Shown here: in pieces, positions 807-35,273 of the stretch | Layout: each line of letters starts with the position of its first letter | Position numbering within the stretch: position 1 is the first letter of the stretch | Source: a virus | DNA length: 35,462 nt | Direction: 5' to 3' (one strand) | Virus record (IMG/VR): IMGVR_UViG_3300035179_000039 | Coordinates: 1-35,462 of that record | The notes under the pieces: model-generated | Told to the model about the DNA's origin: nothing | Database searches by the model: none | What the model saw: only the letters and a program-made list of their open reading frames with translations | Made by a program: the position numbers and the translations under genes

Positions 807-3800
807 GTGAAAGTGGTTAGACCAACCTTCGCATTCGGGTCGACAAGCCGACAAAGAGCCCACGACCTGCGAGACACTGCAGTCAGCAGCAAAGCCTACA
901 TCGACTCCATCTACCCATGGTGGTGGGACGAACGAGAGTTTCCCCGAAGAGCGGTCATGACCGAATGGTTCTACAATCCGCTCAAAGGCCAGCCCCGCTA
1001 CGTCGACGTCTACCATCTCCGAAACATGGCCGCAAGCGAATGGGTCCACATGTGCACAAGCACCATCATCGAAGAAGTGTGTCAAGTCCCCTGGGAGCTG
1101 GTGCCCAAACGCCCAGAGCTACGTGAGTCGCCGCCCGAACAACTCCTCTGGCAGATAGAGGATCAGACCGAATTCTTCAACCGCTGCAACGAGAACAAGG
1201 AAACCCTGACTCACATCTTGCGAGCCCTGCTTCGAGACAGCCTGGAGCTGGACGCAAGCTGCCTCGTGAAAGGCTTCAGCGAACGCAGCTATGAACGGGT
1301 GCCAGAGGGCGGCTTTATCCTCAGACCCCGAGGCCAGCGAGAACTTGTGGAGCTGTTCGCTCGAGACGGCGGCAGCTTCATGAAGGAAACGGACGTGAAC
1401 GGCATCGAGCGCCGCTTCTGGCAGTACTCGTACCTGCACCCGGCCGTCGCCCCGATCGAGTTCGACACAGATGAGATCGCCTACGGCACGCGATATCCCC
1501 GCAGCTACAGCGTCTACGGCTGGTCCGAGCTGCAGAGCATGGAGACGATTCTGAACTGCCTCATCAACAGCGCTTTCACCAACGCCACCATGTTCCAAGA
1601 ATACGCCGTGCCCTCGGGCGTCATCAGCTTCCAAGGCTCTCTCGAGGACGAACGTAGGCTCAAAGAGTATTTCACCACCGAGATCAAAGGCCGCTTCCAC
1701 AAAGTGGCCGTGCTCAACAAGGACGCCACCTTCACGCCCATCACCATGTCGAACCGAGACATGGACTTCATCAACATGCAAAAGTGGTTTAGCAGGCTTT
1801 GCTGGGCTCTGTACAAGCTGACGCCGACCGAGCTGGGCTTCCAAGACGAGATCCGAGAAACCGGCAAGGCGATGGCTGCGCAAAGCAAACTGCAGAAACG
1901 GAAGGCCGTGATGCCTGCGCTCAAGCTGATCGAGATCGTGATCAACACGCAGGTCCTCAACGAGTTCACTGACGACCTGATCTTCCAGTTCCAGTACACA
2001 GACAAAGAAGAGGAATACGCGTGGGACGAGCTGTCACTCCAGCAGCTTGACCGAGGACTCGTCACAATCAACGAGCTGCGCAAGCGCCGGAAAATGGGTG
2101 CGCCAGTCGGCTGGGGAGACCTGCCTTTCCAGCTCACCCTTGCAGGAGCTCGGCCGCCAGCCATGGGCGCACCGCCTGGGCAGCAGTCTCTCGGAGAAAC
2201 CGACATGCAGGACAACGACATGGGCAAGCAGGTGTGGGGCGGCCGCAGCACCGAAGAATACGACTTCCGAACAGACATTCCTCAGAACGTTCGCGCGTTG
2301 AACCCGTCCAGCGGTCGCTACGAGCCAGTGAAGATAGGTAACAAGTTTGACAAACGTGAACTTGAGAAAGCCGTGAGCCTCATCGAGAAGAGCTTTCAGT
2401 ACCGTCTGCAGGCGCCCCGAAAGAAGCCGCTTGACCCCTACGAAGTGCACCTAGTGCAAAACCAGATCGCCAGGCTCAAAGCGGCGATCGGAAAGATCCG
2501 CTACCCCATGGGCGCCCTAGGACCGATGGGCACCAAGCCCGACCCGCCCAGTCGAGACGGCATGCTGCTGCCGGGCGAACAGAAGCCTCGCGACGTCGAG
2601 AAGCCTCTTGGACCGAACCAGACTCCAGCGCCTTACCGCACCGGACCCTACGATCGATACCGGGGCGGAGAACAGCCAAGTAACGAGTTTGCAGGCGGAC
2701 ACGGAGCGCACAGGTGGGAAAGAGACAACACGAACATGCGAGTCAAGCCTAGCGAACGAACGGATCCACGTGGCCTAGCACCGCCTCGGAAGCCCACAGT
2801 GCCTTATCTTGACGCAGAATACCAGATCGTGCCCACGCCGAAGATTCCAGTCGGACCCAAGTACCCCCGAGACGTGCCCCCAGTGCACGGCGCCACAGGC
2901 ATGCCTCGCAAGCCTCTCACAGACGAGGAAGAAGGCGACCAAGTGGATGAGTTCACTCCTGAGGGTGTGAGGCCGAAGGGATGGGTAACTATTGGCGGTC
3001 GGCCTGTGCTCATCGGAGAAGAAGATGAAGACGGAGCGGAAGCAGGAAAAGCGCCAAAAGGCACCAAGCTGGAAGGCACCTATTACCGAGGCAGCACCGA
3101 TGGCAAATATCGAGAGTTCAGCTACTTCACCAAGGAGCAAAGGGAAGCGCAGGTGTACGCTGAGGCGAAGGGCGGCAAGGTGTCCGAACACGATATCAAG
3201 GCGCAGAATGCTTTGAAGGCAAACGACATCTGGCACGCGGGAAAGAAGCTGGGCATTCCATTCGACCGAGACAAAGATGACCCTACGAAGGTGCGGCTGC
3301 AAATTCTGAATACCGCTAAGAAGCAAGGCTACGATGCCATCGATATGGACACTTGGACTGTCGCTATCAAACCTGATGTGGTGAAAGAAACTCGAATCTT
3401 GAAGACCAAGATGACTCCGCCTCTGCCGAGCATGGGCGGCAGCAAGTACCGTCAAGTCAAATTTCTTCGTTCAATCATGCCTGAGAAGCTGGGGCTGTAC
3501 GTGGAGCCTTTCGCAGGCGGCGCCGCCCTGTTCTTCGGGCTGCCTGAGAAGCCTGCGCAGGCGGTGCTGAACGACAAGGACCCGTCTTTCCCTACGTTGT
3601 GGCGATGGATCCAGCAAGCCACACCGGAGCAGATCGAGGACCTAAAGAAGCGTCCATGGACGGCTGAGCGAGACGACTTCTTCCGGGCTAAGGACGAGTT
3701 CAAGCCCCGCAGCCTTCTTGACCGGATCTGGCAGATCCTGTACGTTACGAGACATAGCTTCAGGAACAGCAGGCGCACTTGGCGAGGCGAAGACCGAAAA

Positions 3801-4544
3801 GGCACTCACAGAAACGGCATGCCGCAATGGATCAACAGGATCGACCAGTACCGGGAGCGGTTGCAAGGCGCCACGATTGAAAACAAGGACTGGAAAGAAG
3901 TCATGCAAGAGCACGATGGGCCGGACACGTTCTTCTACATTGACCCGCCCTATGAGCAGGAGTTTGCTAGGCAGCTGCCGGCGGTGCTGGACCGAACCAA
4001 GGGCAAGTGGCTGCTCAGCTTCGGAGAAGACGAGACGCTGCAGCGAGAGCTGGAGAAACGAGGCTTCCACGTCAAGGCGCTGAACGTCACCAACATGATC
4101 AACAAGCCTGATGCAGCCACACGCACCATGCGCCAGGAGATGCTGGCCGCCAACTACCCGCTCGAGTTCGATGGCGACGTCACCTTCAAGTTCGTGGACA
4201 CCGACGTCAGCATGAAACAGCTGTTCTTCTCTGAGGGACGCGTGGTGACCAAAGGCGTGCATGACCATGAGCAAGCCCTCTCAGACAGATTGAAGCTGCT
4301 GATCCGACAGGTGCACACCGGCGCCCTAGGAAAAGAGCAAGCAGCCATCGAAGCCAAAGCAGCGATCGACCACCACATTCTGCAGGGCGTGAAAGAGGCG
4401 ACTGAAAGCGCCGTCGCCCGACAGCTCAAGAAGGAGCAAGTGACCTTGCCGCCGGAAGCCATGGCTCGAATAGAACGCCAGGCGGCGCAGCACATGGAAG
4501 ACTTCATGCGAATCTTGGGAGATGCAGAGAATGCCCAAAAGTAG
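807..4544 (+). CDS. Portal fused to ART-like domain, D12 adenine methyltransferase and helical tail
   Basis: A 1245-residue protein starting with GTG at 807 (MKVVRP). Residues 1-440 look like a portal protein: the stretch FSRLCWALYKLTPTELGF followed by a long helix KAMAAQSKLQKRKAVMPALK is the usual portal stem and crown signature. Residues about 440-745 are a Pro/Gly-rich linker. Residues about 750-865 resemble the ADP-ribosyltransferase-like domain of phage polyvalent proteins (TYYRGS, FSYFT, a conserved-looking QNAL, KKQGYDAIDMD). Residues about 875-1130 are a D12-class DNA adenine methyltransferase, with EPFAGGAALFFG (SAM binding) and YIDPPYE at 3939-3956 (catalytic DPPY). The last 95 residues are helical and may be the N-terminal part of a MuF protein. 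An ordinary portal is roughly 400-550 residues. No frame break is seen, so this is either a true fusion or a precursor cut by the prohead protease. Confidence 0.88.
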   Translation: MKVVRPTFAFGSTSRQRAHDLRDTAVSSKAYIDSIYPWWWDEREFPRRAVMTEWFYNPLKGQPRYVDVYHLRNMAASEWVHMCTSTIIEEVCQVPWELVPKRPELRESPPEQLLWQIEDQTEFFNRCNENKETLTHILRALLRDSLELDASCLVKGFSERSYERVPEGGFILRPRGQRELVELFARDGGSFMKETDVNGIERRFWQYSYLHPAVAPIEFDTDEIAYGTRYPRSYSVYGWSELQSMETILNCLINSAFTNATMFQEYAVPSGVISFQGSLEDERRLKEYFTTEIKGRFHKVAVLNKDATFTPITMSNRDMDFINMQKWFSRLCWALYKLTPTELGFQDEIRETGKAMAAQSKLQKRKAVMPALKLIEIVINTQVLNEFTDDLIFQFQYTDKEEEYAWDELSLQQLDRGLVTINELRKRRKMGAPVGWGDLPFQLTLAGARPPAMGAPPGQQSLGETDMQDNDMGKQVWGGRSTEEYDFRTDIPQNVRALNPSSGRYEPVKIGNKFDKRELEKAVSLIEKSFQYRLQAPRKKPLDPYEVHLVQNQIARLKAAIGKIRYPMGALGPMGTKPDPPSRDGMLLPGEQKPRDVEKPLGPNQTPAPYRTGPYDRYRGGEQPSNEFAGGHGAHRWERDNTNMRVKPSERTDPRGLAPPRKPTVPYLDAEYQIVPTPKIPVGPKYPRDVPPVHGATGMPRKPLTDEEEGDQVDEFTPEGVRPKGWVTIGGRPVLIGEEDEDGAEAGKAPKGTKLEGTYYRGSTDGKYREFSYFTKEQREAQVYAEAKGGKVSEHDIKAQNALKANDIWHAGKKLGIPFDRDKDDPTKVRLQILNTAKKQGYDAIDMDTWTVAIKPDVVKETRILKTKMTPPLPSMGGSKYRQVKFLRSIMPEKLGLYVEPFAGGAALFFGLPEKPAQAVLNDKDPSFPTLWRWIQQATPEQIEDLKKRPWTAERDDFFRAKDEFKPRSLLDRIWQILYVTRHSFRNSRRTWRGEDRKGTHRNGMPQWINRIDQYRERLQGATIENKDWKEVMQEHDGPDTFFYIDPPYEQEFARQLPAVLDRTKGKWLLSFGEDETLQRELEKRGFHVKALNVTNMINKPDAATRTMRQEMLAANYPLEFDGDVTFKFVDTDVSMKQLFFSEGRVVTKGVHDHEQALSDRLKLLIRQVHTGALGKEQAAIEAKAAIDHHILQGVKEATESAVARQLKKEQVTLPPEAMARIERQAAQHMEDFMRILGDAENAQK
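1910..1931 (+). repeat. 22-bp direct repeat, copy in portal gene
   Basis: These 22 bases, coding for the portal segment MPALKLI, recur exactly and in the same orientation at 33643-33664, upstream of the fibre-like gene. A match of this length is not expected by chance in 35 kb. Confidence 0.85.
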
Positions 4545-4838: not shown

Positions 4839-6020
4839 TTGAGGAACCGCCGTGAAAGGGTGCCTTGGAGTGTGCTACATATAGCTGAAGAACCGGATTT
4901 CTGGAAGAGCCTAGATGGGCTGCTGATGCGCATAGATCTGCTGGCGCAGAACCTCGCCTGGAAGTCCTACAACGAAGCCATGCAGGAAACCCTGCGCTTC
5001 GAAGGCGTCACCTGGGTGGAATGGGTCTCAGACTACACGCAGGACCCGGCGAGAGGACCATGCCTCTACTGTGATTCGCAGTCCGGACGCCGCTACCGCC
5101 TAGGCCAGTTTCTGCCTTCGCTGCCTCATCATCCGAACTGCCTACCGGGGAACGCTCTTGTATCGTCCAGTCACAGGATCACGGGTGCTACGAAACGGGC
5201 ATACGATGGAAATGTTCTCATCATCCAAACAGCCACGGGTGACCCTCTTTCCGTCACGCCAAATCACCCTATACTCACACCGCATGGATGGGTTCCTGCC
5301 AGCTTCCTGAATAAAGGCAGCTACGTAGTCTGCCAGCGCAGAAGTGAGTCTATCTTGTCCAGTAATGGGAATCATCAACAGATGCCAACCCCTATTGAGA
5401 ATGTAGCGAATGCGTTTCTCATGATGCCGACGACGCTTCGCAGCAAAGTGCCAACCGCCGCCAAAGATTTCCATGGCGACGGACGGAACGGCGAGGTCGC
5501 AATTGTAGGGACCAATCGCCACTTGATGCCTAACAGAGATGCCTCGGTCAACAAGCATCTGCGCAAATTGGCGTTCATGGAGAGAGATGCCGCTCTGATG
5601 GGTCTCCACAGTCTTGGCCAATTGCAGTTTCTCAGAAAGACTCTTCTTTCGACCACGAGTAGCATCATGAGCCGCACGAACCTGTGCAGCTCGTTGCTCG
5701 GGATTCATCTGGCGCCATTTCAGGAGTCCTGCTTCATGGCGACCACGGATCGGTACGTTGGCTTGAATCAGACGCGCTCGAACCGTTCCTCGGTCGACCT
5801 TGAAGTGCTTCGAAACCTTCTTCTCCGAGATGCCGGAAACATATTCTTTGATGAGATTGTCGATGTCGGCTGGAGAAAGTTTCATGGTCACATCTACAAC
5901 TTAGAAACATCGGCGGGCTATTTTAACGCTTCCGACATAATCGTCTCTAACTGCAAGTGTGACTGGGCTCCAATTCTTCCGACAGAAGAGGAATATGTTC
6001 GCAAAGGCATATTTCCCTAA
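4839..6020 (+). CDS. MuF-type minor head protein interrupted by an intein
   Basis: The 393-residue precursor carries a 271-residue intein (5139-5951). The spliced product would be 122 residues ending in the MuF/SPP1-gp7 signature: CLYCDSQSG, then LPSLPHHPN joined to CKCDWAPI. In this family the HPNCxC motif closes the fold of the minor head protein that sits at the portal vertex. The start is uncertain: TTG at 4839, or GTG at 4860 preceded by a GAGG at 4841. The ordinary family N-terminal helices are not here; the end of the portal fusion may supply them. No membrane segments. The antisense strand of the intein encodes a nuclease (5142-5885). Confidence 0.88.
   Translation: MRNRRERVPWSVLHIAEEPDFWKSLDGLLMRIDLLAQNLAWKSYNEAMQETLRFEGVTWVEWVSDYTQDPARGPCLYCDSQSGRRYRLGQFLPSLPHHPNCLPGNALVSSSHRITGATKRAYDGNVLIIQTATGDPLSVTPNHPILTPHGWVPASFLNKGSYVVCQRRSESILSSNGNHQQMPTPIENVANAFLMMPTTLRSKVPTAAKDFHGDGRNGEVAIVGTNRHLMPNRDASVNKHLRKLAFMERDAALMGLHSLGQLQFLRKTLLSTTSSIMSRTNLCSSLLGIHLAPFQESCFMATTDRYVGLNQTRSNRSSVDLEVLRNLLLRDAGNIFFDEIVDVGWRKFHGHIYNLETSAGYFNASDIIVSNCKCDWAPILPTEEEYVRKGIFP
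5139..5951 (+). other. Intein (Hint-domain protein-splicing element), 271 residues
   Basis: Cys1 is at 5139-5141, opening block A (CLPGNALVSSSHRITG). Block B contains TPNH at 5256-5267 followed by PILTPHGWVPA. The C-terminal blocks are FHGHIYNLETSAGYFNASD and IIVSN, with Asn at 5949-5951, followed by the +1 extein Cys at 5952. The penultimate residue is Ser and not the usual His. There is no LAGLIDADG domain in the sense frame. The central region holds KDFHGDGRNGEVAIVGTNR, which I recall as characteristic of inteins in phage MuF proteins; that recollection was not checked against a database. The endonuclease appears to be supplied by the opposite strand. Confidence 0.9.
5142..5885 (-). CDS. 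Vsr/DUF559-like homing endonuclease encoded antisense within the intein
   Basis: About 247 residues from ATG at 5885 (a GTG two codons upstream, at 5891, is possible); a GTGA sits just upstream as a weak ribosome site. Residues about 8-50 form a helix-turn-helix (GISEKKVSKHFKVDRGTVRA), followed by a basic linker. Then comes a PD-(D/E)XK/Vsr-like core: SLHERQFAQMLVDRG, HQVAIGPYNCDLAV and SVAMEIFGGGWHF, with candidate catalytic Glu in LHERQ, Asp at 5496-5498, Glu at 5469-5471 and a following His, and a basic helix (KRRRHHEKRIRYILNRGW). The C-terminal YRVIWRDGKRVTRGC is a further strand pair. The whole gene lies inside the intein, its codons exactly opposite intein codons. Vsr-like (EDxHD) nucleases are known homing enzymes. 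Confidence 0.85.
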   Translation of the reverse strand: MKLSPADIDNLIKEYVSGISEKKVSKHFKVDRGTVRARLIQANVPIRGRHEAGLLKWRQMNPEQRAAQVRAAHDATRGRKKSLSEKLQLAKTVETHQSGISLHERQFAQMLVDRGISVRHQVAIGPYNCDLAVPSVAMEIFGGGWHFAAKRRRHHEKRIRYILNRGWHLLMIPITGQDRLTSALADYVAAFIQEAGRNPSMRCEYRVIWRDGKRVTRGCLDDENISIVCPFRSTRDPVTGRYKSVPR

Positions 6021-7704: not shown

Positions 7705-8368
7705 TCTTCTTCAGGTGACGCCGGCGCTCATAGTCCTCTAGAAAGCGCACATGGTTGACCTGTGTATCTCCCGGCGTGATGGCTTTGTCCAGCTGCACCT
7801 TCCGGTAGCCAATCGTCCACTTTCCTTCTCCCGCAGAAATCGGGTCCACGGGGTAGAAGCGTCCGCCCATGAACCACTTCAGCTTCAGCCGGTGCTTCTC
7901 CGCCACCAGTTCGGCTTTCACAACTGCCTGGGTGATGGAGTCTCGAACTTCATATCCGCCGCCGAGAGTGTAGCTGCCGCACGCACGCTGCACCGATCCG
8001 GATGCTTCCACGGTTCCAGCTACGTCTAGGCCGTCCACGAATTCCTTGTGAGCTTCCTCGCTGAAGCCTTCTGGAATGATGGTGTCGACCGTGAAGTATG
8101 CAAATACTTCAAGGCTGCCCTCGGGCGCCAAGGTGACAGGCTTCTTCAGCTTCTGTCCAGTGTTCACATTGTCTCGCTGGAAGATCCTGCGGATACCTAT
8201 GTGGTCGCCTAGCAGCACCGAATCTTTCCAGCAGAGCTCTTTCAGGATGCCCGCTGGGACGGTGCGATTTACGCCAAGGCGCCCAGCTTCCTTGCTGAAG
8301 CGGTCCCTTGTGTAGATGCGGCTGGTCACAATGGTCAGCCAATACTCGTATGTCTGAGAGTCCATCAT
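7658..8368 (-). CDS. 236-residue conserved-looking protein of unknown function
   Basis: Starts at ATG 8368, which overlaps the AbrB stop (ATGA) and is preceded by GGTGACCGC. The N-terminal half contains [30 protein letters not shown] and [15 protein letters not shown], which look like a small beta-barrel, perhaps of ASCH/PUA type. The middle has a Gly-rich segment with two Cys-adjacent turns ([15 protein letters not shown]), and the end is charged. It is the longest gene of the minus-strand block and is directly coupled to the AbrB regulator. I cannot assign a function. Confidence 0.75.
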
Positions 8369-17263: not shown

Positions 17264-17665
17264 ATGGCTGCCACAACCACCATTGCGCATACACTTGTCT
17301 CCTCTCTCACCTTGACTCATCCAACTAATCTGCAGCGGGAATCCCCAAGCCGCATCATTGCAAGGCACGAGATTGTGAACAGGGAAGGCGATGAGGGGCA
17401 GGACATGGGCAGCGAGTCTCCCCCCTGGCTTCTTCAGGGGCGCTGCACCGACGCTCAGAAAGATACTTTGAGAAGTTTCTTTGATCAAGTGCAGATTGAC
17501 ACCAGCAACAACGGCTATGTGACCCTGACCCAAACGGACGATAACGATGCCACGATAACCAGCGTGGATAAGTTGGCGATTGAAAGCATGACCTTCGACT
17601 ATGTGGGTGGCCTTCCCCATGTCTGGAGCTTCAGCATCGAGCTAAGAAGATATGTAGCTGCGTAG
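17264..17665 (+). CDS. Distal tail protein candidate
   Basis: A 133-residue beta-rich protein. Strand pairs include HTLVSSLTLTHP and SRIIARHEIVNREG, the segment SPPWLLQGRCTDAQKDTLRS, and GYVTLTQTDDNDATITSVDK ending VWSFSIELRRYVAA. The final strands with a conserved-looking aromatic and ELRRY resemble small baseplate proteins that connect the tube to the hub. It lies between the tape measure and the hub gene, 4 bases after the former and 5 before the latter. Confidence 0.6.
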   Translation: MAATTTIAHTLVSSLTLTHPTNLQRESPSRIIARHEIVNREGDEGQDMGSESPPWLLQGRCTDAQKDTLRSFFDQVQIDTSNNGYVTLTQTDDNDATITSVDKLAIESMTFDYVGGLPHVWSFSIELRRYVAA

Positions 17666-17670
17666 CATAC

Positions 17671-19371
17671 ATGGCTGGAAACCGACCTACCATAAACACG
17701 CTGACTCTCGGCGGCGCAAACGTGAAGAACGACTTCATCAGTCTTGATGTAGAGCAATCGGTTAGCCAAGTCATACCGAACGCCGTTTTGATCCTGAGCA
17801 ATCGAGGCGACAAATACAGCACTGTGGACTGGCATGATGAGCTAATTGCCATCGTGAACGGCGTGAACCTTTTCAGCGGATACATTGACACCCCGCGCAG
17901 GCCGCGTAGCAAGCGGGAAGGAGTCAAGCTGGAAGTGGTGGCGCGAGGCTACATCGCCTCTATGGCGGACGTCGTTGGCAACCTGCATTTTGTCAACAAC
18001 AAGGCAGACTACGCAGTGGCTGAAATTGTGCAAAGCTATAATGCGCTGAAAGGCTCAGCGGATCCAACTATCTCCATTGGTAGCAACCGAGCGCCCAGCA
18101 GTCAGCCGCCCTACGTCACCATGCAGCAGGAAGGCAAATCTCATATTCGCATGCTGCAGGAGCTGGGTGAGCTTCTAGGCCTGCCTGAGGCTTTCAGCGG
18201 CTACGACACCTTCTTCGACTATTATGTGAACAGCTCGAAGCAGCTCTACTTTGAGGAGATAGGGTACCGGAGCAGCGGCGTAGCCTTACTCACCGGCGAC
18301 TGCAAACGAATTGTGCCAGTGATAGATTCGCTTCCGGTACGCACTATGTTTGTGGTCTTTGGAGACCAATACTGTGGCTCGCTTCCTCTTGAGATGGAGC
18401 TTGGCTACGGCGCCCAGCATAACGGAGCCCCATGGCGTGAGGATCCATGGAGCGAGCTGAACACTGAGGACTACCTTGAGGGACCTAACTGCGTCGATGT
18501 GCAAGCCGACGCAGGGTACTATGTGACGCTGGAAGCCATCCAAAGCACGCGAGCCATATTCGCCTCTTTTGAGGACCCGTGGACCGGATACTTCTACATG
18601 CGTTTTCCTCTCGCCTCAGGCAAGTGGCCCGGGCAGGACCCGGCAGGCGGCTTCAACACCTACAACATCACCAACATCGCAGACTACCCTGACGACGACT
18701 TGGAGTACCAGGGAGAAATCAACAAGATAGGACTCTATGTGGGTTATCGCCCGGGGGTCGAACAGAACATTACCTTCAGGCTTGAAGTGGTCACCACAGA
18801 GCCCAAACTGGGAGTCGACACGGTCACCATCAAAACAGACGAGAAAAGCATTGCACCTTTAGGCGACATACCGGGCACCTGGACATGGTTCGAGCACCCG
18901 TTCGGCCCCGGCAGCGCCGTAGGCACGGGAGACGAGCAGTGGCGCCTAGTCAGCCCAACCGAGGATGCGGCGCCCTACTGGGAGAACGTGTCTGAGCTCA
19001 GGTTCTGCTTCAACTTTCCCGCATCCGGACCACTCGACAGCATCTTTTATGGAGAGATAGATGGGCTGCGGTTCGTGAAGCCTCTCGTCGTCAAGCACAT
19101 GGATGCGGCAGATACGATCGTGAAGTCGAAGCACCTGTTTGAGCCATGGGCGAAAGCCTACAGCTGGGCAAAGGCATGGGCGGCTTGTCAAGCTGAGAAT
19201 GAGCGCATGCCTCAGAAATACACTGACATCGAAACCGTGGGCAAAGTGGATATTCCGATCGCTCAGACATTCACTTTGAACGGTACAGAGATGGTGGCAA
19301 GAACCATTAAGCATAGCATATCAAAGAGAAGAGGCTGGACCAGAAGCATCAAAGGATGGGAAAAAACTTGA
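17671..19371 (+). CDS. Baseplate hub / tail-tip protein with a carbohydrate-binding-like insertion
   Basis: A 566-residue protein. Residues 1-130 resemble the gp27/gpD-type hub: SVSQVIPNAVLILSNRGDKY, IVNGVNLFSGYIDTP and KLEVVARGYIASM. Residues about 130-260 continue the hub fold. The insert at about 270-490 (VDVQADAGYYVTLEA through EIDGLRFVKPLVV) has a jelly-roll pattern like carbohydrate-binding modules. The end returns to hub sequence (PIAQTFTLNGTEMVARTIKH). The insert could give glycan binding at the tail tip. It overlaps the next gene by 16 bases. Confidence 0.7.
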   Translation: MAGNRPTINTLTLGGANVKNDFISLDVEQSVSQVIPNAVLILSNRGDKYSTVDWHDELIAIVNGVNLFSGYIDTPRRPRSKREGVKLEVVARGYIASMADVVGNLHFVNNKADYAVAEIVQSYNALKGSADPTISIGSNRAPSSQPPYVTMQQEGKSHIRMLQELGELLGLPEAFSGYDTFFDYYVNSSKQLYFEEIGYRSSGVALLTGDCKRIVPVIDSLPVRTMFVVFGDQYCGSLPLEMELGYGAQHNGAPWREDPWSELNTEDYLEGPNCVDVQADAGYYVTLEAIQSTRAIFASFEDPWTGYFYMRFPLASGKWPGQDPAGGFNTYNITNIADYPDDDLEYQGEINKIGLYVGYRPGVEQNITFRLEVVTTEPKLGVDTVTIKTDEKSIAPLGDIPGTWTWFEHPFGPGSAVGTGDEQWRLVSPTEDAAPYWENVSELRFCFNFPASGPLDSIFYGEIDGLRFVKPLVVKHMDAADTIVKSKHLFEPWAKAYSWAKAWAACQAENERMPQKYTDIETVGKVDIPIAQTFTLNGTEMVARTIKHSISKRRGWTRSIKGWEKT

Positions 19372-20321
19372 CCAAATATCGTCTCCAAACCAGACCGGGC
19401 TTAGGAAAAATGGTGGCTGACGTACAGGACGACATAGACGACTTGATGCGGAGAAAGGTGGGAAGAAGCGGCTCTGTGCCCGTGGTGGTAGTTGGTGCTG
19501 GTGCAGTTGGCGGTGCAGTAGCTACGTTCAACAAATATGTCTTGATTCCTAACAATTATCATGAGGAGTTTGGTTTTGATGATGCACTAGTGTCATGTAT
19601 TGATGAGCAGGGCCGAGCGTGGGGGCGTGGCGCATCAGGATCTTATCCCGGCCCATTCTACGAACACCTTTTCAGAGAGAACTTATCGACAAAGACCTTC
19701 GAGAAGGTTCTTGACATAGAAACCGACTATATGACCCCCCCAGGCGAAATCATACAACTCTGCTGTGCAAAAGACGGAACTCTCTGGTGCTTCGGCAACT
19801 ACGGCTACTATGGTGGCGACGACACGTATGTGGTGTACAAGTTAGGCACAAGCGACGATCCAGAAGCGACGGGTGAAGTGGAACATACCCTCGTCCCCTC
19901 ATCCAACGTATATGTAGACGGCTTGGCAATGGACAGTGAGAGCAGACACTGGATTGGTCTAACCAACTACAATTTGTTTCCTAATGTTTATGCCTTCTTT
20001 TGTCTGGATGGCGACATTAGTCTCGAAGTTCCCGCCCTTGACCGGCCAATATCTACAGGAATCACTTCCAGCGATTGGTTAGTTTGCTCATGGGGGCAAA
20101 GGCAAGTGGTGTTCGCAAAAATAGGAAACGACCACCAGCTTGGAAATTTCGGCATGATACTAAACGACATATCGTACTTGGGGGCTGGCCGTTTCTGTCT
20201 GGATCCTTTAGATAATAAACTCAAAGCACTGGCCACGAATGACAATTTCAACAGATACTTTGTAGACAATGAGTATGCCTATGTGATCTACGTAATAAAT
20301 GATAACTACCTTCCGAGTTGA
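19356..20321 (+). CDS. Receptor-binding / tail-fibre candidate
   Basis: A 321-residue protein. Residues 1-60 are an anchor (KYRLQTRPGLGKMVADVQDD, then a Gly/Ala-Val-rich segment). The rest shows repeated strands with aromatic and Asp turns (LVSCIDEQGRAWGRGASG, CCAKDGTLWCFGNYGYYGGD, LAMDSESRHWIGLTNYN), a pattern like beta-propeller blades. The DNA of this body is visibly richer in A and T than neighbouring genes, which suggests replacement by recombination, as is frequent for host-recognition genes. It is the last gene of the tail block. Confidence 0.6.
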   Translation: MGKNLTKYRLQTRPGLGKMVADVQDDIDDLMRRKVGRSGSVPVVVVGAGAVGGAVATFNKYVLIPNNYHEEFGFDDALVSCIDEQGRAWGRGASGSYPGPFYEHLFRENLSTKTFEKVLDIETDYMTPPGEIIQLCCAKDGTLWCFGNYGYYGGDDTYVVYKLGTSDDPEATGEVEHTLVPSSNVYVDGLAMDSESRHWIGLTNYNLFPNVYAFFCLDGDISLEVPALDRPISTGITSSDWLVCSWGQRQVVFAKIGNDHQLGNFGMILNDISYLGAGRFCLDPLDNKLKALATNDNFNRYFVDNEYAYVIYVINDNYLPS

Positions 20322-20326
20322 TTGAA

Positions 20327-20491
20327 ATGAGCAAACCTGAATCACAGAAGAAGCTCTGCGCCTACGACAAGACGCGAGAATGCAACGAGCAATGCGCGGC
20401 CTTCCTGCAAGGCCGAGAGGCACGTTTTGGTCCAAGTGCATCGCTGTCTTGTCGACGCATGCTGACGGAAAGAGAAAGTCGCCGCCTTTGA
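20327..20491 (+). CDS. 54-residue cysteine-rich protein
   Basis: MSKPESQKKLCAYDKTRECN then EQCAAFLQGRE and later LSCRRML: four cysteines spaced as in small phage proteins that bind one metal. Its last codons fall in the 28-bp inverted repeat. It follows the fibre candidate after 5 bases. Confidence 0.65.
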   Translation: MSKPESQKKLCAYDKTRECNEQCAAFLQGREARFGPSASLSCRRMLTERESRRL

Positions 20492-20512
20492 TTTGCAGTG
20501 TCGGCAAGTCTG
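20485..20512. repeat. 28-bp inverted repeat, copy A
   Basis: An exact 28-base reverse complement of 27698-27725, which lies inside the membrane caspase-like gene. Plus-strand RNA from here would be perfectly complementary to that mRNA. The flanks contain short inverted sequences (GAAAGAG at 20468-20474, CTCTTTC at 20518-20524), so the repeat would lie in the loop of a hairpin. Confidence 0.85.
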
Positions 20513-20540
20513 CGGACGCTCTTTCTGCCTAGCTGCGCAC

Positions 20541-20557
20541 TTTTCGGCGCCCGAAAA
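20541..20557. other. Perfect hairpin in the intergenic region
   Basis: TTTTCGG-CGC-CCGAAAA is a 7-bp stem with a 3-base loop. It could be a terminator of the tail operon, though no T-run follows, or part of an origin. Confidence 0.6.
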
Positions 20558-20568
20558 TTCACGGAAAT

Positions 20569-20592
20569 GAGGCAAAATCAGAGGCAAAATCA
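20569..20592. repeat. Two tandem 12-bp repeats (iteron-like)
   Basis: GAGGCAAAATCA occurs twice with no gap in the non-coding region at 20492-20707. Such short direct repeats are typical binding sites for a replication or transcription protein. Confidence 0.65.
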
Positions 20593-20631
20593 GCCAGTGG
20601 GATAGATGCTAGAGGGCTTGTTCTTGAAGCT

Positions 20632-20657
20632 CCTTATGTGTGATCCTTATGTATGCG
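20632..20657. repeat. Two imperfect 13-bp repeats upstream of the TATA box
   Basis: CCTTATGTGTGAT is followed directly by CCTTATGTATGCG. They lie 9 bases before the TATA box at 20666 and may bind a regulator. Confidence 0.5.
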
Positions 20658-20665
20658 CAAAATCG

Positions 20666-20674
20666 TTTTATATA
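20666..20674 (+). promoter_or_regulatory. TATA box of the early-looking operon
   Basis: TTTTATATA, with an A/G-rich stretch (GCAAAAT) upstream as a possible BRE. Transcription should start near 20697, giving a leader of about 10 bases before ATG 20708. A short inverted repeat, CCGC-GTCTA-GCGG (20681-20693), lies between TATA and start and may be an operator. Confidence 0.7.
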
Positions 20675-20707
20675 CTTTGACCGCGTCTAGCGGAGCTTGA
20701 CAGAACT

Positions 20708-21331
20708 ATGAGCGACGGGACGCTTGACGGGCCGGTGAAGGTAGACATGAACCGTGCAAGGCATAGCTCGAAAAGACAGGTCTATGATGCTTGGAGAGCC
20801 AAATATCAGGGCGATTGGGTTGAAGGAAAGCGCAGAGTCGACATTGTCAAGAAGGTGCTGCAGGACGCGGGGCACGCCGTTTGCGGCTTCGGCTTCTATG
20901 CGGAAAGCACCCGCAAGGCTCAAGAGATGCCGTCCGAGCCCGGGATTCCGGATCTGCAAGTTCTAGGTCTGAGCCGAGAACTCTTCTTGGAAGTGACGGG
21001 CACATCGAAGCCTTTAACGTTCGATTCTCCCCTGTGGATTCGACCTGACAAGTTCGGCTGGGCCCTGAAGCACCTGGACAAAGAAACATGGGCCGCTCAC
21101 GTCTTGCCTGACCTGAGATTAGTGCGCTTCATTCTCCTTGATGATCCGTACCGATACGGAACAGTCAAGGTGTCAATTCGAGGCGGCCCTGAAACCTATC
21201 TCGAGATCCCCTCGGAGCAGGCATGGTCAGCTGACCGCTTCCTGATCTACCTGGACTCTCTTCGGCCGCTGTTGTCGACAGAAACAAAGCGCGACCCCGA
21301 GAAAAGTAGAGTTCTCAGCCAGTTCATGTAG
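20708..21331 (+). CDS. PD-(D/E)XK-like nuclease candidate
   Basis: A 207-residue protein, first gene behind the strong TATA box. The pattern KVLQDAGHAVCGFGFYAES, then PGIPDLQVLG and ELFLEVTGT, fits the core of PD-(D/E)XK enzymes (Asp, then Glu-x-Thr in place of the usual Glu-x-Lys), followed by IRPDKFGWALKH. The replacement of Lys by Thr makes activity uncertain. The remainder is alpha/beta without motifs. It may process viral DNA (resolvase-like) or be a non-catalytic relative. Confidence 0.5.
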   Translation: MSDGTLDGPVKVDMNRARHSSKRQVYDAWRAKYQGDWVEGKRRVDIVKKVLQDAGHAVCGFGFYAESTRKAQEMPSEPGIPDLQVLGLSRELFLEVTGTSKPLTFDSPLWIRPDKFGWALKHLDKETWAAHVLPDLRLVRFILLDDPYRYGTVKVSIRGGPETYLEIPSEQAWSADRFLIYLDSLRPLLSTETKRDPEKSRVLSQFM

Positions 21332-27129: not shown

Positions 27130-28671
27130 ATGGATCCACAACTAACCGCGCTTTTGATTGAACTGTGCGCAGGTATCTTGGGCGGAGTCGCCTACATGAT
27201 CCTGCCGCCTGAAAGCCACGATGTGCTCACCGACGCAAAACAGTGGTTGCGCCACCTGTTCGCAGGCGGCCTAGTCGGCCTGCTCGCCTACCTGAGCGGC
27301 GTCAAACCTGATCTAGTCTCTCTCGCTGGCATCATCGGATCTGGCTACTGGGGCATCGACGTGATCAAGTATGCGTTTAACCACTTCCGGCCGAAAGAAG
27401 GCTTGTCGCAGAAGGAACTTGAGCAGCTTGACCCGACCACGCAGCTAGCCATCAAAAACCTTGAAGAAGCCACCCGAAAAGACTTCAGCAAGCACCCCGT
27501 CAAGTTGGGCGACAAAGAGTTCGAGAAGAATGAAGGCGACCGCCTCACAAGCCTCAACGCCGGCCTATTCGGATCCGTGTGGCCCGCCCGAGGCGTCACT
27601 CGAGCGGAACAGTACGAGCACATGGTGCAGGGCACACCGCTTGGCAAGAAGCTGGTTCGCATCTTCAGCAAAAAGCCGCCAGTCGCCCCTTTGTTCACAG
27701 ACTTGCCGACACTGCAAATCAAAGGACGCGTTCTTCCAGAAGAAATACAGATCCTCACGATTCCTGACGGCGACTGGGGCGACACTGCATGCCGCTTCGG
27801 CCAATACTGGAACAAGAAGATGATAGGCGAATACGCTAGGCAGCTTGGATTCTCAGTCGTAGAGCTTGATGGCGACCAAGCGAAGCGAACTCAGTTTGAA
27901 GCAGCCACCGCTGCCACCTCGCTAGTCCGAGGAATAGAAGGTACCGGCCACGGAGACTCCACAAGGTACACGGGATACCGACAAGATGTGCTACTTGAAC
28001 CTGTGAACTACGGCAACATGAGAAACCGGATCGGCAGCTTCCTCAGCTGCCAGTTCGGCGACTCTTTCCAGCAGCGCCTCAGCCAAGGAGAGCTCGCAGA
28101 GCACTCTTACATAGAGGACTTTGTGTTCAGCATCGACAACGAAGATCCGACCATGGACTCGCACAGCAAGTACTTTTTCTGTCCGCACAGCGACTACTTC
28201 CGAGCGCTCTTGGAAGGGCTGCTGCACGGCCCCGCCACCGTAGCCTGCATCACGTCATGGAACACTTGGCTTAGCAAGGCGCCGTACACCATCCAGTACT
28301 ACATGCAGTGGGACATTGATGCGCAGCAGTTTCCGGGAGACGATGCCGCAGGCCTAGGCGGATCACCCGCTGAGAAAGTTGACAAGGTAGAATTCTATCT
28401 AGACGACGCTTTGGCGGACACAAAGACGCAGCCCAAGACCGGCAACCTGTACGAGTCCATTCAGACCCTTGAACCCGGAACCTACACATGGTGGAGCGTG
28501 CCCTACTACAAAGGCGTGCGCGGACAGGAGAGTGCACACATCACGTTCGAAGTTGAAGAAAGCTCAACAGATACATCGAAAGCTATCGCAGTGAGCCCCA
28601 AGCAAGGAGACAAAGTGCCCGCCGGACCCGTTCCCCTGCAAGCAGAGGCCGTGATCGTAAAACAAACATAG
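27130..28671 (+). CDS. Membrane-anchored caspase-like (clan CD) protease with Ig-like C-terminus
   Basis: A 513-residue protein. Residues 1-85 contain two or three membrane segments (LIELCAGILGGVAYMIL, HLFAGGLVGLLAYLSG, LAGIIGSGYWGIDVIKYA). Residues about 200-380 look like a caspase/gingipain (C25)-type fold: a Rossmann-like start (ILTIPDGDWGDTACRFG), GIEGTGHGDSTRY with the candidate catalytic His274, and GSFLSCQFGDSF with the candidate nucleophile Cys307. The last 150 residues form a beta-sandwich (KVEFYLDDALADTK, SIQTLEPGTYTWWSVPYYKG) and a second Ig-like start. It may open the host cell envelope or S-layer at exit, or act in the virion at entry. It carries copy B of the 28-bp inverted repeat. 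Confidence 0.7.
   Translation: MDPQLTALLIELCAGILGGVAYMILPPESHDVLTDAKQWLRHLFAGGLVGLLAYLSGVKPDLVSLAGIIGSGYWGIDVIKYAFNHFRPKEGLSQKELEQLDPTTQLAIKNLEEATRKDFSKHPVKLGDKEFEKNEGDRLTSLNAGLFGSVWPARGVTRAEQYEHMVQGTPLGKKLVRIFSKKPPVAPLFTDLPTLQIKGRVLPEEIQILTIPDGDWGDTACRFGQYWNKKMIGEYARQLGFSVVELDGDQAKRTQFEAATAATSLVRGIEGTGHGDSTRYTGYRQDVLLEPVNYGNMRNRIGSFLSCQFGDSFQQRLSQGELAEHSYIEDFVFSIDNEDPTMDSHSKYFFCPHSDYFRALLEGLLHGPATVACITSWNTWLSKAPYTIQYYMQWDIDAQQFPGDDAAGLGGSPAEKVDKVEFYLDDALADTKTQPKTGNLYESIQTLEPGTYTWWSVPYYKGVRGQESAHITFEVEESSTDTSKAIAVSPKQGDKVPAGPVPLQAEAVIVKQT
27698..27725. repeat. 28-bp inverted repeat, copy B
   Basis: An exact reverse complement of 20485-20512. Here it is coding, for about residues 190-199 of the caspase-like protein (TDLPTLQIKG). 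Confidence 0.85.
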
Positions 28672-32752: not shown

Positions 32753-33035
32753 AGATCCTAAGCTGCCGGCCAAAGTCACATCGGCACCCCTCGCCGAAAC
32801 CTCAGCCAAGAAGCGACGCGGCCGCCTGCTCATGTCAAGCCTCGCCTGCCCCCGCTGCCACAAGCTAGGCACCACCTACCGGATCCCAGAGCAGCTCGAC
32901 ATGGGTCCCTGGAAGCTGGACCTGCCTTTCTTCGAGTGCTCAGGCTGCGCCATGAAGTGGTACGACTACACGGAAATGCTGGCGTACATCCTTGCCAGAA
33001 ATGAATCCGACCGAATGACGAGGAAGCCCACTTAG
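32742..33035 (+). CDS. Zinc-ribbon protein
   Basis: A 97-residue protein from GTG 32742. Disordered basic start, then SLACPRCHKLGTTYRIPEQL and FFECSGCAMKWYDYTEMLAY, a zinc ribbon with a C-terminal helix. Its stop TAG shares bases with the stop of the convergent HNH gene. Confidence 0.7.
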   Translation: MSVEDPKLPAKVTSAPLAETSAKKRRGRLLMSSLACPRCHKLGTTYRIPEQLDMGPWKLDLPFFECSGCAMKWYDYTEMLAYILARNESDRMTRKPT

Positions 33036-33475
33036 ATGCGCCAATTCTTGTTGTTGATGATGAGAAAAATTTGGTGTTGACTGACCCCGAACTGCTTCGC
33101 TAACTTGCGTTGGCTCCCAATAATAGGATAACTTGCTCGAATTTCATTCACTTCCTTCCAAGTCAGCTTTGCCTGACCATGCTCTTCTCCCTTCAAGAAG
33201 ACACCGCGTCCTTTATTGATCATATCCCGCATATTGTCGATATGTTTACCGAGGAACAGGTGTGCAGGATTCACACAGCGTTTGTTGTCGCAATGATGCA
33301 GAACATCCATGCCTTGAGGGATCGCGCTGAAAATCAGTTCGTAAGCGACTCGATGAGCATATTCGGGGCCGCCATTACGCCAAAACCAGCCATAGCCACC
33401 GCCCGCTGTGCATCCTAACCAAAACCAACAATCAGGTGTTTTCTTGACTTTTGACCAAAATCGTTTCATAATCAT
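33032..33475 (-). CDS. HNH homing endonuclease
   Basis: A 147-residue protein, minus strand (ATG 33475; ATG 33469 gives the more usual MKRFWSK start). DCWFWLGCTAGGGYG and YAHRVAYELIFSAIPQGM lead to VLHHCDNKRCVNPAHLFLG, the HNH_3 catalytic motif, then IDNMRDMINKGRG and a helix-turn-helix (GSQRKLAKQFGVSQHQIFLI) for DNA recognition. This is the phage-type free-standing homing nuclease. It is visibly richer in A and T than the flanking genes and is the only minus-strand gene within a plus-strand operon, both signs of acquisition. Confidence 0.9.
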   Translation of the reverse strand: MIMKRFWSKVKKTPDCWFWLGCTAGGGYGWFWRNGGPEYAHRVAYELIFSAIPQGMDVLHHCDNKRCVNPAHLFLGKHIDNMRDMINKGRGVFLKGEEHGQAKLTWKEVNEIRASYPIIGSQRKLAKQFGVSQHQIFLIINNKNWRI

Positions 33476-33642: not shown

Positions 33643-33664
33643 GATGCCTGCGCTCAAGCTGATC
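33643..33664 (+). repeat. 22-bp direct repeat, copy upstream of fibre-like gene
   Basis: Exact copy of portal bases 1910-1931. Here it opens a ten-codon frame (ATG 33644, MPALKLINNE) that runs into the next start region; the reading frame is the same as in the portal. Confidence 0.85.
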
Positions 33665-33668
33665 AACA

Positions 33669-35273
33669 ATGAGTGAGACACAGGTCGACGTTACCAAAGT
33701 CAAGGGCGCCGCCCTGAAAACCCCAACGGTGACCGCTGCGCTTCCCATAAGCGTAGAGAACCCTGCGCTCGCCTACGACTCCGCCAAGGATCGCTTCAAG
33801 ATTGACATAGAAGCGATTGCTGGCGAAGACCAATCAGCTCGGGACTGGAGCCTTGACCTAGCGAAGCTGCAGAACCTTCCCACAGATCCGGCGAAAGAAT
33901 CCGGCAAACTCACCACCATTGACAGCACCCTCACCGCAATCGACTCAGTGCTTGATGACGTCAAGGCGCTGCTGGCAGGCGGTTTACCGGCCGCCCTAGA
34001 CGGCGAAGCCCTGAAAGTGAGTGAGCAGAACTGGCCTGCAAGCTACGTGGTCGAAGCCACCAACCTAGACATTCGCGATCTCACGGAAACAGAGCGCACG
34101 CCTCTCGGTTCTAAAGGCGTGGCGCTGCAGCAGAAAACGACCAGCAATGATCTCATCGTCACCTTAGACGGAGAAACCATCACGGTTCAGGCTACGCATC
34201 TGGATATTCGAGACCTCACCACGACGGAGCGCACCCCTCTTGGCTCCAATGCTGCACCCTTGCAGCAGGTCGCTGGAGATAATGCACTCAGAGTCAGAGA
34301 GCAGGAATTTCCCAGCGACTACCCTGACGCAGCCACCCTCGCCATCTTGGTAAGCCTACTCGCAGGCGGCCTTCCAAGCACACTCACCGCAGACAAGCTC
34401 AAGGTTCGAGCCACAGAAATAGAAACCCTGCTGGCGGCCGGGCTTCCCAGTGCGCTGGATGGCGACGCTCTCAAGGTGAGCGAGCAAAGCCCTCTCTCCA
34501 CCATTGAAGTGAGCAACTTTCCCGCAGACTACCCGGACTCAGCTGTCGCCACACTACTGGCCGCCGGTCTACCGACGGCCCTAGACACAGATGCCTTGAA
34601 GACTCGGGAGCAGAACCCAATAACGGGGTTCGCAACCCAGACAACCTTAGCTTTGATCGCTGGCTACGTGGACGGACTTGAAGCACTCTTAGGCGGCGGC
34701 CTACCAAGCGCCTTAGCCACAGACGCTTTGAAAATTAGAGAGCAGGGTACGCCTACGGTCACCGTGGGCACCTTCCCTGACAACGAACCTTTCAACCTCA
34801 ACCAAGTCGGCGGCACAGCTCAAACAGCCGCAGACTGGACGCCGCTACTGCAGAAGCTAGACGCTGCTCTGAGTACGATGGCGAGGCTTCAACCATGGTA
34901 TCAAACAAACTTTACGCGAGTCAATCGGGGCTATTCAGCAGCATTGATTGCGCCTCACGAATTCACAAACCGCTGGACCTACACGATTCCAGCTTCACGC
35001 ATCGGACGTGTGATGATGGCAGAGGTTGAATTAATGAGGGATGCAGCCCCAGTAGCGGCAGGCACAGCATACTGCTACATCACTATCGGAGCAGTTTTCG
35101 GACCAGACATGAGAGAGATTACCGCGACTGTGGGCGTTCCAAGGGTTCTATTCACAAGTGAGGGTAGTATTGCGATTGCGGATGACGTGATAACGTGCAC
35201 AACGGCAGACGGAAGCAACGGGGGCACCTATACATACGTGAACTGCGCGAACATCATGGTGTTCAACACATGA
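33669..35273 (+). CDS. Fibre-like virion protein with internal repeats
   Basis: A 534-residue protein. Residues about 100-380 consist of two repeat types: (V/T)LLAxGLPxALDxDALKxxEQ, about five copies, and LDIRDLTxTERTPLGS, two copies. These alternate with N-x-P-x-x-Y linkers. A coil follows (DWTPLLQKLDAALSTMARLQ), and the last 120 residues form a beta-sandwich (HEFTNRWTYTIPASRIGRVM, AYCYITIGAVFG) such as ends many fibres. This is probably a trimeric spike or head fibre; its position beside the portal and terminase genes and not the tail tip favours a head or neck fibre. Confidence 0.65.
   Translation: MSETQVDVTKVKGAALKTPTVTAALPISVENPALAYDSAKDRFKIDIEAIAGEDQSARDWSLDLAKLQNLPTDPAKESGKLTTIDSTLTAIDSVLDDVKALLAGGLPAALDGEALKVSEQNWPASYVVEATNLDIRDLTETERTPLGSKGVALQQKTTSNDLIVTLDGETITVQATHLDIRDLTTTERTPLGSNAAPLQQVAGDNALRVREQEFPSDYPDAATLAILVSLLAGGLPSTLTADKLKVRATEIETLLAAGLPSALDGDALKVSEQSPLSTIEVSNFPADYPDSAVATLLAAGLPTALDTDALKTREQNPITGFATQTTLALIAGYVDGLEALLGGGLPSALATDALKIREQGTPTVTVGTFPDNEPFNLNQVGGTAQTAADWTPLLQKLDAALSTMARLQPWYQTNFTRVNRGYSAALIAPHEFTNRWTYTIPASRIGRVMMAEVELMRDAAPVAAGTAYCYITIGAVFGPDMREITATVGVPRVLFTSEGSIAIADDVITCTTADGSNGGTYTYVNCANIMVFNT

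Follow-up and report, generated by a model that had tools for sequence, protein, structure and literature searches.

Templated inverted insertions of very small size (mostly about 5–34 bp) and templated insertions from distant sites are documented at DNA breaks in yeast (PMC11724301), and template switching that homogenizes short inverted repeats is described as widespread (PMC8604942). In this work we describe a pair of 28-nt inverted copies in the virus record IMGVR_UViG_3300035179_000039 of IMG/VR, analyzed as one stretch from position 1 to 35,462 (the window), which is a circular-looking complete viral record of 35,462 bases with a 127-nt end overlap. One copy lies at the end of a block of tail genes and the other within a gene for a 513-aa caspase-like protein. 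We favor the reading that the pair is a short, non-reciprocal, inverted templated copy left by DNA repair or replication, to which we assign a probability of roughly 0.6.

As in the break insertions described in PMC11724301, the element is tens of base pairs long, inverted, apparently copied from elsewhere in the genome and free of extended homology; unlike those insertions, documented in yeast with a known recipient junction, it lies in a tailed virus and has a putative recipient site. With the repeats described in the consulted part of PMC8604942 it shares an imperfect inverted arrangement with a perfect core, whereas the spacers scanned there were ≤70 nt and the arms here are 7.2 kb apart. 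The features at the two ends of the pair are:

20485..20512, + strand: copy 1 of the 28-nt repeat, covering the end of a small ORF (C CTT TGA) and then 21 nt of 3′ flank
27698..27725, − strand: copy 2, the 28-nt repeat in the orientation opposite to copy 1; the + strand codes for DLPTLQIKG-type residues, about codons 190–199 of the caspase-like ORF
20327..20491, + strand: small cysteine-containing ORF of 54 aa, the final gene of the tail block, with its stop codon inside copy 1
27130..28671, + strand: 513-aa ORF holding copy 2, with N-terminal hydrophobic helices, a linker with the repeat, a GTGHGD...SCQFG domain and a weak Ig-like stretch

A 28-nt inverted pair beyond chance expectation

The initial annotation, made from the letters of the window, had reported that positions 20485–20512 are the exact reverse complement of 27698–27725, and this was borne out over all 28 nt. 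No other inverted match in the genome is as long, the runner-up being 17 nt, and the longest inverted match across 60 genomes simulated with a third-order Markov model was 20 nt. A simple expectation gives 9e-9 inverted matches of at least 28 nt; on this figure and the simulation maximum, a chance origin was ruled out. The pair can be extended to 38 nt at 89% identity (20480–20517 and 27693–27730) with four mismatches, one of which would read as a G–U wobble in RNA, and similarity between the two regions ends there with no extended homology. The pair thereby shows what characterizes a short templated inverted duplication, a short, exact or near-exact inverted copy above chance without extended homology.

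At the level of genes, copy 1 begins in the ORF that follows the tail gene at 19356–20321, an overlap absent from the initial annotation. Its first 7 nt complete the penultimate sense codon and provide the final codon CTT and the stop TGA, and its remaining 21 nt form the 3′ flank. Copy 2 is coding throughout, within the linker between the hydrophobic N-terminal helices and the GTGHGD/SCQFG domain.

A second exact repeat, in direct orientation, has the same layout, with one copy coding and the other in a gap:

1910..1931, + strand: coding copy of a 22-nt direct repeat, in the portal ORF; exact
33643..33664, + strand: non-coding copy of the 22-nt repeat, in the gap immediately before the gene at 33669; a copy is also present in the related record G001

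Against an expectation of 5e-5 and a longest direct match of 20 nt in the 60 simulations, this repeat is also above chance. G001 holds the gap copy, and its contig stops short of the portal gene. Since the 22-nt repeat is in sense orientation, antisense pairing cannot be the reason for it, and a general process of short templated copying, which covers a direct non-chance copy as well as an inverted one, is the simplest account of the two pairs.

From these observations we infer a copying event, its direction and a lack of function as follows. Before the window and G001 split, roughly 28–38 nt of the caspase-like gene would have been copied in inverted orientation into the small ORF's end and the intergenic gap at 20.5 kb, copying in the opposite direction, from 20.5 kb into the caspase-like gene, being less likely. 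The copied patch would now give the small ORF its stop codon, and the rest would be passenger sequence. A pattern of gap recipients and coding donors is expected from survival after random copying, and the two homing-endonuclease-like genes in the window are possible sources of the breaks. Read as a scar, the pair would record how snippets of coding DNA enter gaps in compact viral genomes, an event that this genome would have undergone twice, once in each orientation, with one of the two providing a stop codon.

Several points weigh against this account. All four mismatches of the 38-nt pair fall within its outer 10 positions (P 0.003 if mismatches were evenly spread, in a post hoc comparison), and the mismatch-free core could reflect constraint, though the outer matches may be mere chance. 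Copy 1 spans a stop codon at the end of a gene block, a position also expected of a regulatory 3′ element. The published precedents come mainly from yeast rather than from tailed viruses. Among the relatives described below, no record with one copy alone was found, so the copying event and its direction are putative, and inverted matches of at least 20 nt occur in none of the nine relatives other than G001, so inverted copies are uncommon in the group.

Distribution among relatives

The relatives comprise 10 records found via terminase and compared whole, several of the nine besides G001 being fragments; both the window and G001 are metagenome assemblies. The caspase-like ORF, the small ORF and the 28-nt inverted pair each occur in one of the 10 records, which every time is G001, where both copies are unchanged and have the same relative orientation as in the window. 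G005, G007, G009 and G010 extend through the long tail gene at 17671–19371 in the synteny table, and none of them has the small ORF. As for an empty recipient site, the only carrier of the small ORF among the 10 records also has the copy. Searches of viral contigs with the small ORF, the caspase-like core, a 207-aa gene and the tail gene returned G001 alone each time. A 23-nt core of the repeat matched two places in viral contigs, both in G001, and had no match in genome contigs.

The initial annotation had called for a check of complementarity in relatives. It is kept intact in G001; however, this record is too similar for a change to be expected. The block at 23.6–29.0 kb around the target gene is 99.3% identical in the two records, and at a difference of about 0.7% some 0.2 changes are expected in 28 nt. 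Because G001 is so near to the window, the kept complementarity is uninformative either way on constraint. Around copy 1 the near-identical part is shorter:

20356..20560, + strand: block around copy 1, near-identical between the window and G001, with diverged sequence at both edges

One of its edges meets diverged tail-gene sequence, and the other some 45 diverged bases. The N-terminus of the small ORF in G001 differs from that in the window in its nucleotides and in their number, and the frame is kept. This retention of the frame indicates that the 54-aa ORF is probably a real gene, for which PHROG, PADLOC and a phage collection gave no match.

That the pair arose as an assembly artefact is very unlikely. 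That both records are metagenome assemblies speaks for it, yet the same pair appears in two records that differ at many places. The 127-nt end overlap also suggests a long assembly word, on which inference a 28-nt repeat would be unable to cause a misjoin.

Beyond the two pairs of the window, dispersed direct exact repeats of at least 20 nt without local tandem structure were found in the other nine relatives at lengths of 24 nt (G005), 38 nt (G007) and 26 nt (G003 and G004), in line with the copying account. The 26-nt repeat sits in a longer diverged duplication of the portal gene, and in G009 and G010 the larger or local repeats are either end overlaps or tandem-like. In G003 a 97-aa ORF ahead of the portal gene (17631–17924; L022) contains the duplicate, a diverged partial copy of that gene with the 26-nt exact core. 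The window also has 17-nt exact repeats, direct and inverted, at 7877–7893/8443–8459 and 7766–7782/11731–11747, which are within the chance range and recur in G001.

Possible antisense pairing between the two copies

The initial annotation had offered two readings of the match, a timing control in which late transcription silences an exit gene and a recombination scar. The scar is the better supported of the two, the match itself being the only positive evidence for a timing control. In the antisense reading, the 3′ end or read-through of the late transcript would carry copy 1 and pair in trans with the caspase-like mRNA along 28 bp, or as many as about 38 if mismatches are allowed, blocking translation or stability, perhaps after kissing of two complementary 7-nt hairpin loops. 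In its favor are the 28 perfect base pairs of extended complementarity, for which both RNAs would come from the + strand; copy 1 also lies where the last late gene ends, and the complementarity is intact in G001. Folded alone, copy 1 forms a 7-bp hairpin that outperforms about 96% of shuffles. The predicted duplex of copy 1 with its target (−78) is stronger than that with the best other genome window sampled (−68), although a 28-bp match must give the strongest duplex at the target anyway.

Other results make this reading unlikely. The target site is mid-gene, about 570 nt into the caspase-like coding region, rather than at its start. The fold of the region around copy 1 reaches −42.3 kcal/mol against −37.8 kcal/mol for shuffles (z −1.23; 23 of 200 shuffles as good), so the surrounding structure is not above shuffles. 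The proposal in the initial annotation that a flanking inverted repeat presents the 28-mer in a loop is only partly right: a stem of about 9 bp including a wobble is present, but there is no inverted pair of at least 10 nt at this place, the fold of the region does not exceed that of shuffles, and 14 of the 28 bases pair within the 28-mer, which is thus not an open loop. No sigma-70-like promoter was detected in 20000–21000 and no separate promoter for a small RNA near 20.3–20.6 kb, while the same 20000–21000 scan gave one terminator-like site, at chance level. Scans of the window for tRNAs and Rfam families gave no hits. Neither copy has a substitution in G001, which is too similar to test constraint, and the genome carries a repeat of the same type in direct orientation. 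Moreover, late silencing of a lysis-type gene is the opposite of the expected timing.

Phage OOP and CopA/CopT are trans-encoded antisense RNA types with which this locus can be compared. It shares with them long perfect complementarity and complementary hairpin loops; in contrast to them, it offers a candidate RNA only, with a mid-gene target and no promoter found. The more specific proposal is that the late tail transcript acts in trans through its 3′ end, pairing over 28 perfect bases within the coding region of the mRNA for the virus's own holin-like/caspase-like exit protein, and that the end of the late program thereby feeds back on cell exit; it is slightly less likely still. Antisense control, if it did operate, would amount to trans pairing of 28 bp in mid-gene within a single virus, which is unusual. 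For genome reading in general the pair carries a caution, as a long perfect complement alone does not make a regulator.

Copy 1 is quasi-palindromic, with 7-bp arms (one G–U in RNA) around a 7-nt centre, which is the layout of tyrosine-recombinase core sites. The copies could on this basis be protein binding or crossover sites, for example for a recombinase, at which the segment from 20.5 to 27.7 kb is flipped. We consider this improbable. The orientation is identical in both records that carry the pair, and an inversion would cut the caspase-like ORF in two, its C-terminal part then having a stop 15 codons upstream; on these two grounds site-specific inversion is disfavored. No recombinase or invertase family was found in the 18 distinct ORFs, a subset of those in the window, that were scanned with Pfam, which gave a weak resolvase-type HTH (E 0.074) in an antisense endonuclease ORF.

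A further reading, that copy 1 is a spacer of a virus-borne CRISPR-like unit directed against the caspase-like gene, is highly improbable. Copy 1 resembles the virus-borne mini-CRISPR arrays of PMC6858448 in being a spacer-sized match in a viral intergenic place, and differs from them in that it has no flanking repeats or leader and is a self-match. The absence of a repeat pair around copy 1 disfavors a mini-CRISPR; in addition, the target would be the virus itself and the sequence overlaps a coding end. Three other identities of the 28-mer were considered and dropped: a tRNA-type attachment site, a diversity-generating retroelement, and a remnant of a longer inverted gene copy, the last for want of similarity beyond 38 nt.

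The intergenic stretch downstream of the small ORF contains one further feature ahead of the next gene:

20667..20674, + strand: TATA-like element ahead of the gene at 20708, the sole YTTAWAWW match in the genome; a consensus match only

Closely upstream of this site are two tandem pairs of 12–13-nt units, at 20569–20592 and 20631–20655, made up of GAGGCAAAATCA twice and TCCTTATGTRTG twice. These are possible regulator sites for the gene at 20708.

The caspase-like gene

The gene with copy 2 had been described as membrane caspase-like and a lysis candidate. For the 513-aa product, PHROG gave a weak holin match over residues 5–86 (E 0.021) and Pfam gave no significant family, Big_7 (E 0.022) being below cut-off. 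Both labels are reasonable but tentative, and support for the first is weak. The GTGHGD/SCQFG domain is 27% identical over 137 aa to a 249-aa protein of an archaeal (Methanofastidiosa) virus (L042:19902–20648), and this match begins at residue 237, so the repeat falls outside it. The core had no match among solved structures, and a structure model predicted for the whole 513-aa product, with no alignment as input, has a mean pLDDT of 33 and is uninformative. PADLOC returned nothing for the caspase-like protein or for the 207-aa protein.

The GHG and SC motif domain is common to the product of 27130–28671 and the Methanofastidiosa virus protein, and tailed archaeal viruses may possess a caspase-like protein linked to the membrane. 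The only hints of an archaeal host are the TATA-like site and the weak Methanofastidiosa virus match. A search of genome contigs with the terminase alignment for a host found no relative, the phage collection had no match for the capsid protein, and a literature search for Methanofastidiosa viruses found none.

Other genes in the window

The ORF at 4839–6020 (+ strand) carries a splicing domain of intein type (PF14890, E 2.9e-5, short of the curated cut-off). Inside it, on the − strand at 5142–5891, lies a 249-aa ORF that matches the endonuclease fold MTES_1575 (E 7.8e-6, below cut-off) and has an N-terminal HTH-like stretch. The arrangement resembles an intein with an uninterrupted frame of its own and a homing endonuclease encoded on its antisense strand. 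A literature search gave no title describing such an arrangement for inteins among the matches listed.

At 33032–33475 (− strand) is an HNH homing endonuclease gene (PF13392, E 2.6e-12) that is missing from G001. Because its flanks are contiguous there, the gene is read as a recent insertion, close to the 22-nt repeat. Finally, the ORF at 807–4544 (+ strand) predicts a single chain of 1245 aa with portal, ADP-ribosyltransferase-like (weak) and D12 adenine methyltransferase domains.
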